Below are positions 10,087 to 48,495 of a stretch of 64,000 nucleotides of DNA, one piece after another. Numbering within the stretch: the first letter of the stretch is position 1; each line of letters starts with the position of its first letter. The position numbers and the translations under genes are program-made. Source of the stretch: Gemmatimonadota bacterium (GTDB lineage: Bacteria; Gemmatimonadota; Gemmatimonadetes; Gemmatimonadales; Gemmatimonadaceae); the NCBI GenBank assembly GCA_028287305.1, contig JAQBPX010000011.1:124001-188000 (forward strand), given 5' to 3'. The notes beneath the pieces were generated by a model. It did not search any database and had not been told where the DNA came from. It was given only the letters and a program-made list of their open reading frames with translations.

Positions 10087-10384
10087 TCCGGGCTGCCTGA
10101 TCAGGGGAGCCGGCGCGATGTTCGGCGTGATGTTCCTGCCGATCGCCATCTTCTTCCTCAAGATCGACGCGCGACGCAACTGGCCGAACGCACTCGGACT
10201 GGTCATCGCGGCGCTCTGGGGATTCGTGATCGCGTTCCGCTCGGCGGACTTCGAGTGGATGGAGGCGTCAGCGAATCCGCACGCCGATGATGCGGAGCCA
10301 TTCGAGCTGCCCGAATTGCCGGCGTCGCCACCGGCGCTGGAGCTGCCACAAGCCGAGGTCCCTGCCGATGAAGAAGCTCCCTGA
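10070..10384 (+). CDS. Small membrane protein with acidic tail
   Basis: 104 residues starting at an ATG that overlaps the PAP2 gene by 17 bases. Two hydrophobic helices (about residues 17-30 and 42-55) are followed by an acidic, Pro-rich tail (AEPFELPELPASPP) of about 40 residues that looks disordered. Its end overlaps the next gene by 17 bases. The start could be the later in-frame ATG of MFGVMFLP. Not recognised. Confidence 0.6.
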   Translation: MSRLRDPGCLIRGAGAMFGVMFLPIAIFFLKIDARRNWPNALGLVIAALWGFVIAFRSADFEWMEASANPHADDAEPFELPELPASPPALELPQAEVPADEEAP

Positions 10385-11429
10385 ACTGCTCGCGCTGTCA
10401 CTGCTGCTCGCCAGCCGCGCGAGTGCGCAATCGTCATGGACTTCGCAGACGATCGCCTACGGTGGCGAGCTGCGCGGGTTGAGCGTGGTGAACGACCGAG
10501 TGGCCTGGGCGAGCGGCACCAGGGGCACGGTGATCCACACGGTTGATGGCGGCGTCACGTGGAGGGTGGACACGATTCCCGGCGCGAGCGCGCTCGACTT
10601 TCGTGACGTCGAAGCCATCTCGGCGAGCGTCGCAGTCGCAATGAGCAGTGGGGAAGCCGAGAAGGGGCTCGCGCGCATGTACCGCACCGAGGACGCGGGG
10701 CGCAGCTGGACGCTCGCCTACCAGACGGACCTCAGGGGCGCGTTCCTGGACGCGATCTCATTCTGGGACGCGAAGCGTGGCGTGGTGTTCGGCGACCCGG
10801 TCGACGGCAAGTTCTTCGTGCTGCTCACAAGTGACGGTGGGCGAAGCTGGACGCGAGTGGATGATGCGCGCCTGCCGGTGCCGCTCACCGGTGAGGCCGC
10901 GTTCGCCGCGAGTGGAAGCTGCCTGGCGGTGATGGCCGGCGGACATGCGTGGATCGGCACGGGCGGGGGCGCGCAGTCGCGCGTGCTGCAGACGCACGAC
11001 TACGGGCGCCACTGGAGCATCGTCGCCGCGCCTGTTCCGGCAGGCTCCGCGTCAGCGGGGCTGTTCTCGATTGCCTTTCGCGACACGAAGCATGGCGTGG
11101 CGGTGGGCGGTGACTACACGAAGCCGGCGTACGCGAGCGACAACGTGGCGATCACTCGCGACGGCGGGCGAAGCTGGCGGGTGGCGAAGGGAGCGCTGCC
11201 GGGCGGCTACCTGTCCGGTGTGAGCTTCGCGCGCGATGCGCGCACGCTGGTGGGCGTGGGACTTGCCGGCACCTTCGTGTCGCGTGACGGCGGCGACTCG
11301 TGGAGCGCGGCCGACAGCGTGGGGTACAACTCGGTGAGTTTCGCCGCGCACGCCGGCTATGCAGTGGGACCGCGCGGGCGCGTGGCGCGGTGGATTCCTT
11401 CGCAACCATTCGGACACCCGAAGCGATGA
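10368..11429 (+). CDS. Exported BNR/Ycf48-like beta-propeller protein
   Basis: 353 residues. A signal peptide (MKKLPELLALSLLLASRASA) is followed by repeated Asp-box-like motifs, seen as DGGVTW, DAGRSW, DGGRSW, DYGRHW, DGGRSW and DGGDSW spaced through the chain. This is the bladed fold of BNR/sialidase-like and photosystem II stability factor (Ycf48/HCF136)-like proteins. It has no sialidase catalytic arrangement that I can see, so it is probably a binding or assembly protein outside the inner membrane. The ORF overlaps the preceding small membrane protein and the next gene (ATGA). Confidence 0.8.
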   Translation: MKKLPELLALSLLLASRASAQSSWTSQTIAYGGELRGLSVVNDRVAWASGTRGTVIHTVDGGVTWRVDTIPGASALDFRDVEAISASVAVAMSSGEAEKGLARMYRTEDAGRSWTLAYQTDLRGAFLDAISFWDAKRGVVFGDPVDGKFFVLLTSDGGRSWTRVDDARLPVPLTGEAAFAASGSCLAVMAGGHAWIGTGGGAQSRVLQTHDYGRHWSIVAAPVPAGSASAGLFSIAFRDTKHGVAVGGDYTKPAYASDNVAITRDGGRSWRVAKGALPGGYLSGVSFARDARTLVGVGLAGTFVSRDGGDSWSAADSVGYNSVSFAAHAGYAVGPRGRVARWIPSQPFGHPKR

Positions 11430-29631: not shown

Positions 29632-29650
29632 TGGCGGCTCCGGAGGGTGA

Positions 29651-29702
29651 TACCTCGACATCCGACAACAGGATGTGGGAGCTGTTGTCGGATGTCAAGG
29701 TA
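29651..29702 (-). promoter_or_regulatory. 52-bp operator dyad upstream of padR
   Basis: The left arm TACCTCGACATCCGACAACA is matched, at 19 of 20 positions, by the inverted right arm at 29683-29702, with 12 bases between. The central 14 bases (GACATCCGACAACA) are perfect. Read on the minus strand the outer arm contains TTGACA, then 17 bases to CATCCT, a possible sigma70-like promoter. The site begins 20 bases before the PadR start codon; autoregulation is the likely purpose. Confidence 0.75.
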
Positions 29703-29736
29703 TTGAGCGCGCCGGGCTGGAAAACAACAGCCTTGC

Positions 29737-32763: not shown

Positions 32764-32775
32764 CTCCGCGCGACG

Positions 32776-32897
32776 GGGCCGCTTCCTCGGACTATCGCGG
32801 ACGAACGGAAGCGGAGTTTCGCGGACACTTCAAAGCATTTGTCGTATCGGCGCAGCTATCCGCTCTTTAGTCCGCGGAATCCGAGGAGACCGGCCGC
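32776..32897. repeat. Palindromic intergenic element, copy 1
   Basis: Beginning 12 bases after the acylase stop, GGCCGCTTCCTCGGA is mirrored by TCCGAGGAGACCGG at the other end, with GCGGACGAACGGAAGCGGA and TCCGCTCTTTAGTCCGC as inner arms. The same order of arms is seen in a clearer copy at 47886-48058, so this is a diverged relative. It could act as a transcript-end hairpin. Confidence 0.65.
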
Positions 32898-32924
32898 GGC
32901 GCGAAGGGACTGCCCTTCGCTCCG
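32897..32924. terminator. GCGAAGGG hairpin
   Basis: GCGAAGGG and CCCTTCGC pair perfectly around a 4-base ACTG loop; one mismatch further out another three pairs form. It is 20 bases upstream of the next ATG, so it could also be a 5' leader element of that gene. No T-run follows. Confidence 0.45.
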
Positions 32925-45800: not shown

Positions 45801-46043
45801 GTCGTGGCTCCACACCGGCATGAAGTCCTCGGCCACATGACTCGTGAGCGGGATCGCGGCGCCCCCCGCGGCGGCCACGCGCCAGAGGTCGCCCTTGTAG
45901 GTGAAGACGAGAGTTCGCCCATCCGGCGAAATCGCGGGGTAGCGCATCCAGCTCGCTCCCTCGGCCTGCGTCGAGGGGTTCTGCGCGCCGGCGGTGGGCG
46001 CACAGAGGAGGGCGGCGAGCGCCAGGAAGGGGCGGAGTTTCAT
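42804..46043 (-). CDS. Secreted tricorn-like S41 protease with beta-propeller
   Basis: 1079 residues. A signal peptide (LALAALLCAPTAGAQ), then about twelve WD40/PD40 beta-propeller motifs (residues 35-480; YPAISPDGRTLVFT, PVWSHDGKQLAFAS), a charged helical segment (about 555-590), a second propeller stretch, a PDZ domain (about 790-870), and the S41 catalytic domain at the end (ISHSG His region, ANEANYSDGHCFAYE nucleophile Ser region). Tricorn-type enzymes degrade peptides released by other proteases. It is one of several secreted hydrolases in the window. Confidence 0.9.
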   Translation of the reverse strand: MKLRPFLALAALLCAPTAGAQNPSTQAEGASWMRYPAISPDGRTLVFTYKGDLWRVAAAGGAAIPLTSHVAEDFMPVWSHDGKQLAFASDRYGNFDVFVMPASGGEARRLTFHSAHEYPYTFSADDRNVVFGAARLDAAQNRQFPTGSQPELYSVAASGGRPVQLLTTPADNVRFNRDGSLMLYEDRKGQENQWRKHHVSAVARDIWIYDTKAGTHRKLTTFPGEDRNPVFSGDAKSVYYLSEESGSFNVHRMSVDGGKSTQLTQFSKVPVRFLTRADDGTLAFGFDGQLYTMAMNAQPKRVDVTLAADSRANNERVMPVTSGARELAVSPNGKEVAFTFRGDVFVASVDGGVTKRITSTPETETGVGFSPDGKSLIYASERGGRWAIYEARRQRDAEPYFYASTVVRETPVIANDHQNFDPQYSPDGKEISFVEDRNTYRIYTPSTKQSRTLLTDREIFSSGPGHHFAWSPDSKWILFDFDVPGLAPGEVGLVRADGKGDVVNLTQSGFNDGRAEWILGGKAMMWFSNRDGLKSVAQTGGSQQDAYAMFFDRDAWERFRLTKEEFALVKEADDKLAKTRADSLKAKADSVKETKKDLVLDLDRVENRKARLTVNSSSLGDALVSKDGETLYYLARFERGLNLWSTNLRTKETKMVLPLNANGGSLEWDKEQKNLFLIADGAISKIDPVTAKRDVVPLSGEMMLDVDAERAAMFDHVWRKTRDTFYSKGYHGIDWTGLRPVYAKYLPHIGNNFELAELMAEMLGELNISHSGATYSGSAPNDDATASLGLFYDQSYRGPGVKIEEVMRDGPLDRTNVTVKPGMIIESVDGVSIGADHDLAEYLNRKAGKNVLLGLADGAVKSEFVVKPVTPAAENTLLYNRWVKRNADEVDKASNGQVGYVHIPGMNDGAYRSTFEDVMGRYADRKGVVIDTRFNGGGDLVADLAMFLSGKRFFDYTTDTRSSGYEPNFRWTKPSVALANEANYSDGHCFAYEYRAQHLGPLIGMPTPGTCTFSGWETLQDGLRWGVPGVGVKDAETGKYLENLQTEPDIKVMNQYDVVGKGKDQQLEAAIAALLKIIH

Positions 46044-46173
46044 TGCTTGTGTCGGCGGGGTGGGAACGGGCGCCGGGAGGGAGGGCGCCCTTCATTGTAG
46101 CGCGGCGGACAGCGGTCGCGCCACGTCGGGCCGCCTCCCCATATTCCATCCATACAATCATCCCCGACTCCGC

Positions 46174-47877
46174 ATGCGATTCCCCCACGCCCGTTCCGCC
46201 CTCGCGCTGCTCGCAATTGGCGCGATCACCGCCTGCCAGCCCGCCGCCGAGAAGCAGGACACCACCATTGTTGCCGCTGGCCCGAAGGGCGAGCCGGTGC
46301 CAGCCGAGGCAGTGGCCGCGCTCGACACCGCCACGCTGATGCGGCACATCCGCGTGCTCTCGGCCGACTCGCTGATGGGGCGCAAGCCCGGCACGCCCGG
46401 CGAGGACAAGGCGACGGCGTACATCGCGGCGCAGTTCAAGGCCATCGGCGTGGCGCCCGGCAACCCGGACGGGACGTACATGCAGAAGGTGCCGCTCGTC
46501 GGCATCACGGTGAAGAATGCGCCGACGCTCACCTTCAGGAAGGGCTCGGCGACGCAGGCGTTGAAGTGGCGTGACGACTACGTCGCGTGGACCAAGCACG
46601 TGTCGCCCACGGTGTCGCTCGCCAACTCGAACGTGGTGTTCGTCGGCTACGGCATCGAGGCGCCGGAGCTTGGCTGGGACGACTTCAAGGGCGTGGACGT
46701 GACCGGCAAGACGGTCATCATGCTCGTGAATGACCCGCCGCTGGCGGATACGTCGCAGTTCGGCGGGTCGCGCATGACGTACTATGGTCGCTGGACGTAC
46801 AAGTACGACCAGGGGATGAAGCACAAGGCCGCGGCCGTGCTGCTCGTGCACGAGACCGATCGCGCCGGCTACCCGTTCGCGGTGGTGCAGGGCCGCGCGA
46901 GCGAGCAGTTCGACCTGGTGACGCCCGACAAGAACATGTCGCGCAGCTCCGTGGAAGGCTGGATCACCGTGGACCAGGCGAGAAAGCTCTTCACCATGGC
47001 GGGGCAGGACTTCGACTCGCTCAAGGCGAAGGCCGCGACGAAGGCGTTCACGCCCGTGGACTTCGGCCTCACCGCGAACCTCACGCTGCAGAATGCGCTG
47101 CGCACGGTGGACTCGAAGAACGTGGTCGCGAAGCTCGAGGGGAGCGACCCCGCGCTGAAGGGTGAGTACGTGGTGTACTCGGCCCACTGGGACCACTTCG
47201 GGATCGGCGAGAAGGTGAACGGCGACTCCATCTACAACGGCGCGGCGGACAACGCGAGCGGCGTGGCGGGGTTGCTCGACCTGGCGCAGGCGTTCAGGAA
47301 CATGAAGACGCCGCCGAAGCGCTCGATCCTCTTCATCTCGGTCACGGCGGAGGAGCAGGGCCTGCTCGGCTCGCAGTACTATGCGATGCAGCCGCTGTAT
47401 CCGCTCGCGAAGACCGTCGCGAACATCAACGTGGACGAGATGAACACGTGGGGAAAGACGAAGGACCTCATTGTGGTCGGGCTTGGCGCGAGTGAGCTGG
47501 ACGACTACGCGAAGCAGGCGGCGGACGAGCAGGGTCGCGTGCTGCGACCGGATGCGGAGCCGGAGAAGGGGTTCTACTATCGCAGCGACCACTTCAACTT
47601 CGCGAAGTTCGGTGTGCCGGCGTTCTCGCCGAACCCGGGGATCGAGTACGAAGGGAAGCCGGCCGAGTACGGCCGCCAGAAGCGTGATGAGTTCACGGCG
47701 AACCAGTACCACAAGCCGCAGGACGAGATCCTCCCGGGCTGGGACATGAGCGGCGCCGTGCAGGACCTGCAGCTGTTCCTGGCGATGGGCTACCGGATCG
47801 CGAACGCCGCGAAGATGCCCGAGTGGCGGGCGGGGAACGAGTTCCGGTCGATCCGTGAGAAGTCGCTTCGGCCCTAG
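46174..47877 (+). CDS. M28 family metallopeptidase with PA domain, lipoprotein
   Basis: 567 residues. Lipobox in ALLAIGAITAC. A PA (protease-associated) domain lies at about residues 130-290. The catalytic domain shows SAHWDHFG (His and Asp ligands), GAADNASGVAGLLDLA, SVTAEEQGLLGS (catalytic and metal Glu), NVDEM and YRSDHFNFAKFGVP (last His ligand). It is a secreted aminopeptidase-type enzyme. ATG 46174 is chosen because it begins the lipoprotein leader. Divergent from the tricorn-like gene across a 130-base spacer. Confidence 0.92.
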   Translation: MRFPHARSALALLAIGAITACQPAAEKQDTTIVAAGPKGEPVPAEAVAALDTATLMRHIRVLSADSLMGRKPGTPGEDKATAYIAAQFKAIGVAPGNPDGTYMQKVPLVGITVKNAPTLTFRKGSATQALKWRDDYVAWTKHVSPTVSLANSNVVFVGYGIEAPELGWDDFKGVDVTGKTVIMLVNDPPLADTSQFGGSRMTYYGRWTYKYDQGMKHKAAAVLLVHETDRAGYPFAVVQGRASEQFDLVTPDKNMSRSSVEGWITVDQARKLFTMAGQDFDSLKAKAATKAFTPVDFGLTANLTLQNALRTVDSKNVVAKLEGSDPALKGEYVVYSAHWDHFGIGEKVNGDSIYNGAADNASGVAGLLDLAQAFRNMKTPPKRSILFISVTAEEQGLLGSQYYAMQPLYPLAKTVANINVDEMNTWGKTKDLIVVGLGASELDDYAKQAADEQGRVLRPDAEPEKGFYYRSDHFNFAKFGVPAFSPNPGIEYEGKPAEYGRQKRDEFTANQYHKPQDEILPGWDMSGAVQDLQLFLAMGYRIANAAKMPEWRAGNEFRSIREKSLRP

Positions 47878-47885
47878 TGCGCCGG

Positions 47886-48058
47886 GGCCGGTTCCTCGGA
47901 AACAGCCACGGACTGAAGGGCGGAGTTCGCGGAGACTGCAACTACAATGCTTTTTGGAACGGCACACCGGGCCCAGCCCGGTGTGCCGTTCACAATTTGT
48001 GGCGGTCTCCGCGCTGTTTTCCGCCCTTCAGTCCGCGGGAGTTTCCGAGGAACCGACC
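47886..48058. repeat. Long multi-arm palindromic element, copy 2
   Basis: CGGTTCCTCGGAAAC (47889-47903) pairs with 48041-48055, CGGACTGAAGGGCGGA (47909-47924) pairs with 48020-48035, and GCGGAGAC (47929-47936) pairs with 48005-48012, all perfectly. Inside sits a 16-bp perfect hairpin with a 3-base loop (47957-47972 and 47976-47991). It starts 9 bases after the M28 stop. The same arm plan occurs at 32776. The form is that of a palindromic mobile or regulatory element, not a gene. Confidence 0.85.
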
Positions 48059-48088
48059 CTCGAGCAAGGATCCTTACATCACGGGTCG

Positions 48089-48159: not shown

Positions 48160-48495
48160 ATGGCCCGCTCCAAGACCGACATCCTCCAGGGCACCCTCGC
48201 CCTCCTCGTCCTCCGCACCCTCTCCTCGCGCGGGTCGCTGCATGGCTACGCCATCACGCAGCACATCCAGCGTGGGTCCAACGAGCTGCTGCGCGTCGAG
48301 GAGGGGTCGCTCTACCCTGCCCTGCATCGCATGTCGCAGGACGGGCTGATCAAGGGCAAGTGGGGGATCACCGACAAGAACCGCGAGGCCCGCTTCTACG
48401 CCATTACCGCCGCCGGCAAGAAGGCGCTGGCCGAGGAAGAGGACGCCTGGCGTCGCCTCGCGCAGGGCGTGTCGCTCATCCTGAACTTCGCCTGA
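48160..48495 (+). CDS. PadR family transcriptional regulator
   Basis: 111 residues. MARSKTDILQGTLALLVLRTL opens a PadR winged helix; EEGSLYPALHRMSQDGLI is the recognition segment and EARFYAITAAGKKALAEE the wing and dimer helix. It is the closest partner of the permease that begins 10 bases after its stop, as with the pair at 26654-29631. Confidence 0.9.
   Translation: MARSKTDILQGTLALLVLRTLSSRGSLHGYAITQHIQRGSNELLRVEEGSLYPALHRMSQDGLIKGKWGITDKNREARFYAITAAGKKALAEEEDAWRRLAQGVSLILNFA

Follow-up and report, generated by a model that had tools for sequence, protein, structure and literature searches.

Long nested palindromes dispersed in a Gemmatimonadota genome as possible non-autonomous kin of hairpin elements carrying GxxExxY genes

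The intergenic palindrome at positions 47878-48067 of the window (the whole stretch of 64,000 nucleotides of Gemmatimonadota DNA that was analyzed) belongs to a dispersed family of long nested palindromes, some of which enclose a gene for a GxxExxY protein. We put at about even chances the reading that it is an ORF-less, non-autonomous copy of this genome-specific family, kin to hairpin elements carrying GxxExxY and moved by the GxxExxY protein. The element in the window is probably mobile. Its parts and neighbors, in window coordinates, are the following.

46174-47877, + strand: upstream gene, M28-peptidase-like (ORF 45994-47877; family assigned by eye and by the initial annotation, start codon guessed)
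47878-48067, no strand assigned: whole nested palindrome, a type A copy
47879-47900, + strand: outer shell, left arm, GCGCCGGGGCCGGTTCCTCGGA, common to type A copies
47909-47924, + strand: middle module, left, a 16-bp perfect stem CGGACTGAAGGGCGGA that is also present in other copies
47928-47936, + strand: inner module, left, CGCGGAGAC, a 9-bp stem
47957-47991, no strand assigned: core hairpin of 16 bp with a 3-nt loop
48005-48013, - strand: inner module, right
48020-48035, - strand: middle module, right
48041-48067, - strand: outer shell, right arm, partly decayed past the 15-bp stem
48160-48495, + strand: downstream gene, PadR-like (family by eye)
32770-32902, no strand assigned: second family copy in the window, 6 bp past the end of a called gene (32763)

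Perfect stems of 15 bp (47889-47903 with 48041-48055), 16 bp (47909-47924 with 48020-48035) and 9 bp (47928-47936 with 48005-48013) surround the central 16-bp hairpin (47957-47972 with 47976-47991), and with a loop of 3 nt this copy holds no ORF. The initial annotation had recognized the same architecture, except that it gave the innermost of its three arm pairs 8 bases, and had set the limits of what is a real palindrome slightly too narrowly, at 47886-48058. The outer arms (47878-47924 and 48020-48066) are 85% complementary; at the settings used, no inverted repeat in the window is longer. Folded as RNA, the element reaches a minimum free energy of -145.4 kcal/mol, compared with -80.4 ± 4.8 in dinucleotide shuffles (z = -13.6; none of 200 reached that value), which bears out the earlier judgment that such a structure is unlikely by chance. 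The placement directly after the upstream gene is also correct: the TAG stop codon (47875-47877) abuts the palindrome, which sits in a 282-bp gap ahead of the next called gene (48160). An intrinsic terminator combines a G+C-rich stem with a T-run, and no T-run follows either outer arm on the relevant strand. Elsewhere in the window, a 22-nt inverted repeat at 29650-29703 (95% complementary, 10-nt loop) is unrelated to the element by the searches made.

Searching the element's own genome (4.37 Mb in 39 contigs) returned 71 matching stretches in ~37 places, many of which were hit on both strands, as a palindrome would be. With two further queries, the related places numbered at least 50, a lower bound since the count was obtained by searches, and the case of a palindrome with no other copies, which the initial annotation had named as a refutation, is thereby excluded. 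No copies were found in the 30 relatives of the same family or order that were searched, so of the genomes searched only this one carries the sequence family; the plasmid and phage collections did not match the element either.

The copies are mosaics in which exchangeable nested shells surround common core hairpins. Type A is defined by the outer shell GCGCCGGGGCCGGTTCCTCGGA; type B reaches ~270 bp and runs through GCGCTCCACACGTAGGGGTCTC, then GGCGTAACGGCG, then CCTTGGT; C (GCCGCGGACGAGCGCGGACGA) and D (GCCGCTGAACTGCAACGGCAGA) are smaller types. The core GCACACC..GGTGTGC occurs in 25 places in the genome, within several different shells, compared with 2 for the pattern read backwards, and the outer ends YGCGC...GCGCR are common to the copies. 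At one locus (L109, G000:C16 near 64515) a second long hairpin, with arms GACACGAACATCACGAATGGCCGCTAACGCGGCCGC, stands next to the core hairpin and seems to represent an additional palindrome type. Central deletions are asymmetric: the short copies L035, L042, L066 and L075 retain deeper-shell remnants on just one of their arms. This is the pattern that deletion of a palindrome's center would leave, and the reading of these copies as stages preceding insertion of the center was rejected. Copy-specific outer stems were also considered as relics of target hairpins and rejected, as only the shell-adjacent nucleotides co-vary (3 nt, z = 3.0) and local alignment of the flanks gave p = 0.15.

The tie to GxxExxY comes from the same genome. 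On contig C28, a GxxExxY gene (PF13366) at 10224-10547 lies between inverted type A arms (10124-10183 and 10618-10676); relatives of this gene in the genome also match TIGR04256, and the arm matches ~30 of the fetched loci. Altogether, the genome carries seven GxxExxY genes and eight four-helix-bundle (23S IVP, PF05635) genes. Two more GxxExxY genes (C4:607445 and C24:112172) lie within type C and type D shells respectively, both of which also occur ORF-less, so that three palindrome types exist side by side in gene-bearing and ORF-less form. For type B, which makes up a large share of the copies, no gene-bearing copy was found. The eight IVP-type genes stand outside an rRNA context (G000 contigs C37, C10, C4, C27, C20 and C34; L089-L096), most of them within palindromes whose arms have their own sequences.

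The gene-in-palindrome layout recurs across phyla. The flanks of genes were scored for inverted repeats against the same measure on shifted centers at the same loci, with the 99th percentile of the control as cut-off; 50 GxxExxY loci from many phyla were fetched, and further GxxExxY loci of the same bacterial family and IVP loci of the phylum were added. The cut-off was exceeded by 28 of 45 GxxExxY loci from many phyla (17 fell below it), 15 of 26 from the same family and 19 of 25 IVP loci from the phylum. The corresponding figures in the element's own genome are 4/7 for GxxExxY, with three genes failing, and 6/8 for IVP. Short tandem units are common in the arms (48 of 70 exceed 95% of their own shuffles), and the arms share a strand-polar motif: read inwards, GACAGG and ACAGGA each occur in 15 of 62 loci, versus 1 for the complement.

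Turnover was visible in another genus of the same family. In G051, the GxxExxY gene has a complete ~170-bp palindrome on either side; this palindrome has ~40 occurrences in that genome and none in G052. Comparison with the congener G011 over an 18-kb stretch (collinear, ~80% identity) found five palindromes absent and two present, at a distance where gain and loss are indistinguishable and the flanks of empty sites are too diverged for exact junctions. A segment of ~7 kb is inverted between these congeners (L232/L254; G051:C21:264000-282000 versus G011:C27:7000-25000), and each of its ends falls on a palindrome site, as though recombination had taken place there. In the relative G048, several GxxExxY fragments covering 29-53 profile positions lie on different contigs and suggest decayed gene copies.

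Copies sit at the 3' ends of genes. With gene orientation taken from a simple codon-usage gene caller, 50 copies fell between 23 convergent, 24 tandem and 3 divergent gene pairs, compared with 5 convergent, 28 tandem and 12 divergent for element-free gaps at the same loci (Fisher p = 2.4e-4), and the median distance from the end of an element to the neighboring stop codon is 11 bp. A similar bias has been published for REPs (PMC3733652), so the preference may reflect tolerance and does not demonstrate targeting.

Among 49 aligned GxxExxY proteins, G.LE..Y, a D and ExK are invariant, and such conservation of the catalytic E, D and ExK is what an active PDDEXK nuclease would show. A confident AlphaFold2 model (mean pLDDT 89.6) is nearest to Cas4 SSO0001 and matches more weakly the Holliday-junction resolvase Hjc, lambda exonuclease and a tRNA-splicing endonuclease; with TM-scores of about 0.4-0.5 these matches are distant, and no substrate can be deduced from them. 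No solved relatives were found by sequence. We propose that the palindrome would extrude as a cruciform or as a single-strand hairpin and that the GxxExxY nuclease, acting in trans, would cut the hairpin or branched DNA. Repair could then copy the element to other sites, where new copies would survive mainly at gene 3' ends, and exchange between copies together with hairpin-tip deletion would give rise to mosaic and shortened copies. PF05635 proteins have a relative in Avd, a protein of diversity-generating retroelements (PMC10053308), which makes an RNA or cDNA step a further possibility.

A different explanation, which we consider improbable, is that the palindrome functions as RNA, a transcribed 3'-end hairpin that stops, processes (through RNase III) or protects mRNAs and is kept by selection on RNA pairing. 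The very stable fold, the short distance to stop codons and the convergent bias would all suit it, as would some within-copy covariation in type B, where the two arms of the 12 copies are 79.3% alike compared with 76.2% between copies (z = 3.1). In the 23 type A copies, however, the signal is weak (78.2% versus 76.4%, z = 1.9), and the strong within-copy covariation that would have been taken as proof of RNA function is absent. The two middle-module types, counted from arm alignments, pair left and right without association (10 matched, 10 mismatched), and copies between tandem genes have no excess of G-U pairs on the sense strand (62 G-U versus 50 A-C mismatches, p = 0.30). With weak covariation and no G-U excess, selection on RNA pairing in individual copies is not apparent, and the large RNA structure and the mRNA 3' stabilizer, both raised by the initial annotation, gain little from these tests. 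The missing T-run also speaks against an RNA role, and no Rfam family reaches its gathering score; the three sub-threshold matches, two of which are plant miRNA hairpins, were put down to chance similarity with a long hairpin. The arms evolve nearly independently, which suits exchange and decay of the DNA better than selection on RNA pairing.

It is similarly unlikely, in our estimate, that the element is an ordinary MITE or TIR derivative moved by a DDE transposase, with GxxExxY as a passenger caught between two copies. Dispersed, intergenic, non-coding copies with common outer ends are what such a derivative would look like, and the G051 gene between two complete palindromes could be a passenger of this kind. 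Yet the flanks of copies show no common target-site duplication, the empty sites being too diverged to read one, and exchangeable nested shells are unlike MITEs. Chance capture would also leave unexplained that, in many phyla, inverted repeats of differing sequence surround GxxExxY and IVP genes.

We give equally little weight to a third possibility, in which replication errors (snap-back or template switching at hairpins) make and renew palindromes with no dedicated enzyme, and GxxExxY and IVP are separate selfish genes that survive best inside them: central deletions, mosaic arms and the short tandem units would follow readily, but the presence of one family in at least 50 places requires copying into new sites, and the strand-polar motif (GACAGG; ACAGGA 15:1) is common to arms of unrelated genomes.

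Beyond this genome, GxxExxY-driven mobility could be one instance of a widespread class of mobile hairpins, in which GxxExxY or four-helix-bundle genes in palindromes with short tandem purine-rich units would copy themselves and ORF-less palindromes to gene ends, and 23S rRNA intervening sequences (IVS) would be the particular case of insertion into rRNA hairpin loops. This generalization is tentative, and we lean somewhat against it. To our knowledge, no role has been assigned to the GxxExxY and four-helix-bundle proteins, both of them common orphan families, nor is there an agreed origin for the 23S IVS. The signal found in many phyla links both families, and the question of the IVS, to dispersed palindromes, and yields a testable proposal of a hairpin-based system analogous to REP/RAYT but built on an unrelated enzyme. 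Many short-unit palindromic intergenic repeats in environmental genomes could be explained in the same way.

In the literature searched, where two papers mention GxxExxY by name, nothing connecting it to palindromes was found, nor was an earlier description of such a palindrome system; preprints and most subscription journals lay outside the search, and we claim no priority. Among the closest known systems is REP/RAYT (REPtrons, BIMEs), in which genome-specific, multi-copy palindromes likewise go together with a small number of nuclease genes flanked by that repeat. REPs are mostly found near gene 3' ends, between convergent or unidirectional genes (PMC3733652), as are the copies described here. 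However, a REP is a single palindrome of 20-40 bp, whereas the present elements have nested shells over about 190-270 bp. The enzyme differs as well: REP/RAYT depends on a Y1 transposase, and the present genome gave 0 matches to Y1/RAYT/IS200 transposases (PF01797; 5 of 14 control genomes were positive), the bracketed gene encoding instead an unrelated PDDEXK protein. The element thus appears to work like REP/RAYT without being a member. The suggestion of the initial annotation that it is a REP/MITE-like, non-autonomous element is supported by the dispersed copies and by the shells that they have in common with gene-bearing copies, but the element is not a REP in the proper sense.

MITEs and TIRtrons (TIR-flanked RAYT-like genes) are likewise non-autonomous inverted-repeat elements with ends in common with a gene-bearing form. 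They differ from the present element, which is palindromic throughout with nested shells, has no target duplication that we could find and is associated with a different enzyme; a MITE shares its ends with a transposase-bearing element, and here the sharing that was found is with a GxxExxY gene.

The 23S rRNA IVS, with its S23p/four-helix-bundle ORF (PF05635), places a small ORF inside a long stem-loop. That of Coxiella burnetii has a 28-bp terminal inverted repeat and tandem GACAGAT heptamers beside the ORF (PMC4990558), and these heptamers resemble the GACAGG/ACAGGA arm motif described above. IVP genes of this phylum lie between inverted repeats, like the IVS ORF. An IVS, however, occupies a 23S rRNA helix with its ORF in the loop, whereas the window copy is ORF-less and lies between protein genes, and the gene linked to its family is GxxExxY, not IVP. 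In design, the rRNA IVS looks like the gene-in-palindrome loci, a resemblance rather than a test of descent.

Finally, for GxxExxY/PDDEXK_3 (TIGR04256, PF13366), otherwise a family name only, the gene lies here inside palindrome shells. We propose the grouping "GxxExxY-associated palindromes", in which the shell of the ORF-less copies also brackets the gene, as it does on C28 of the same genome.
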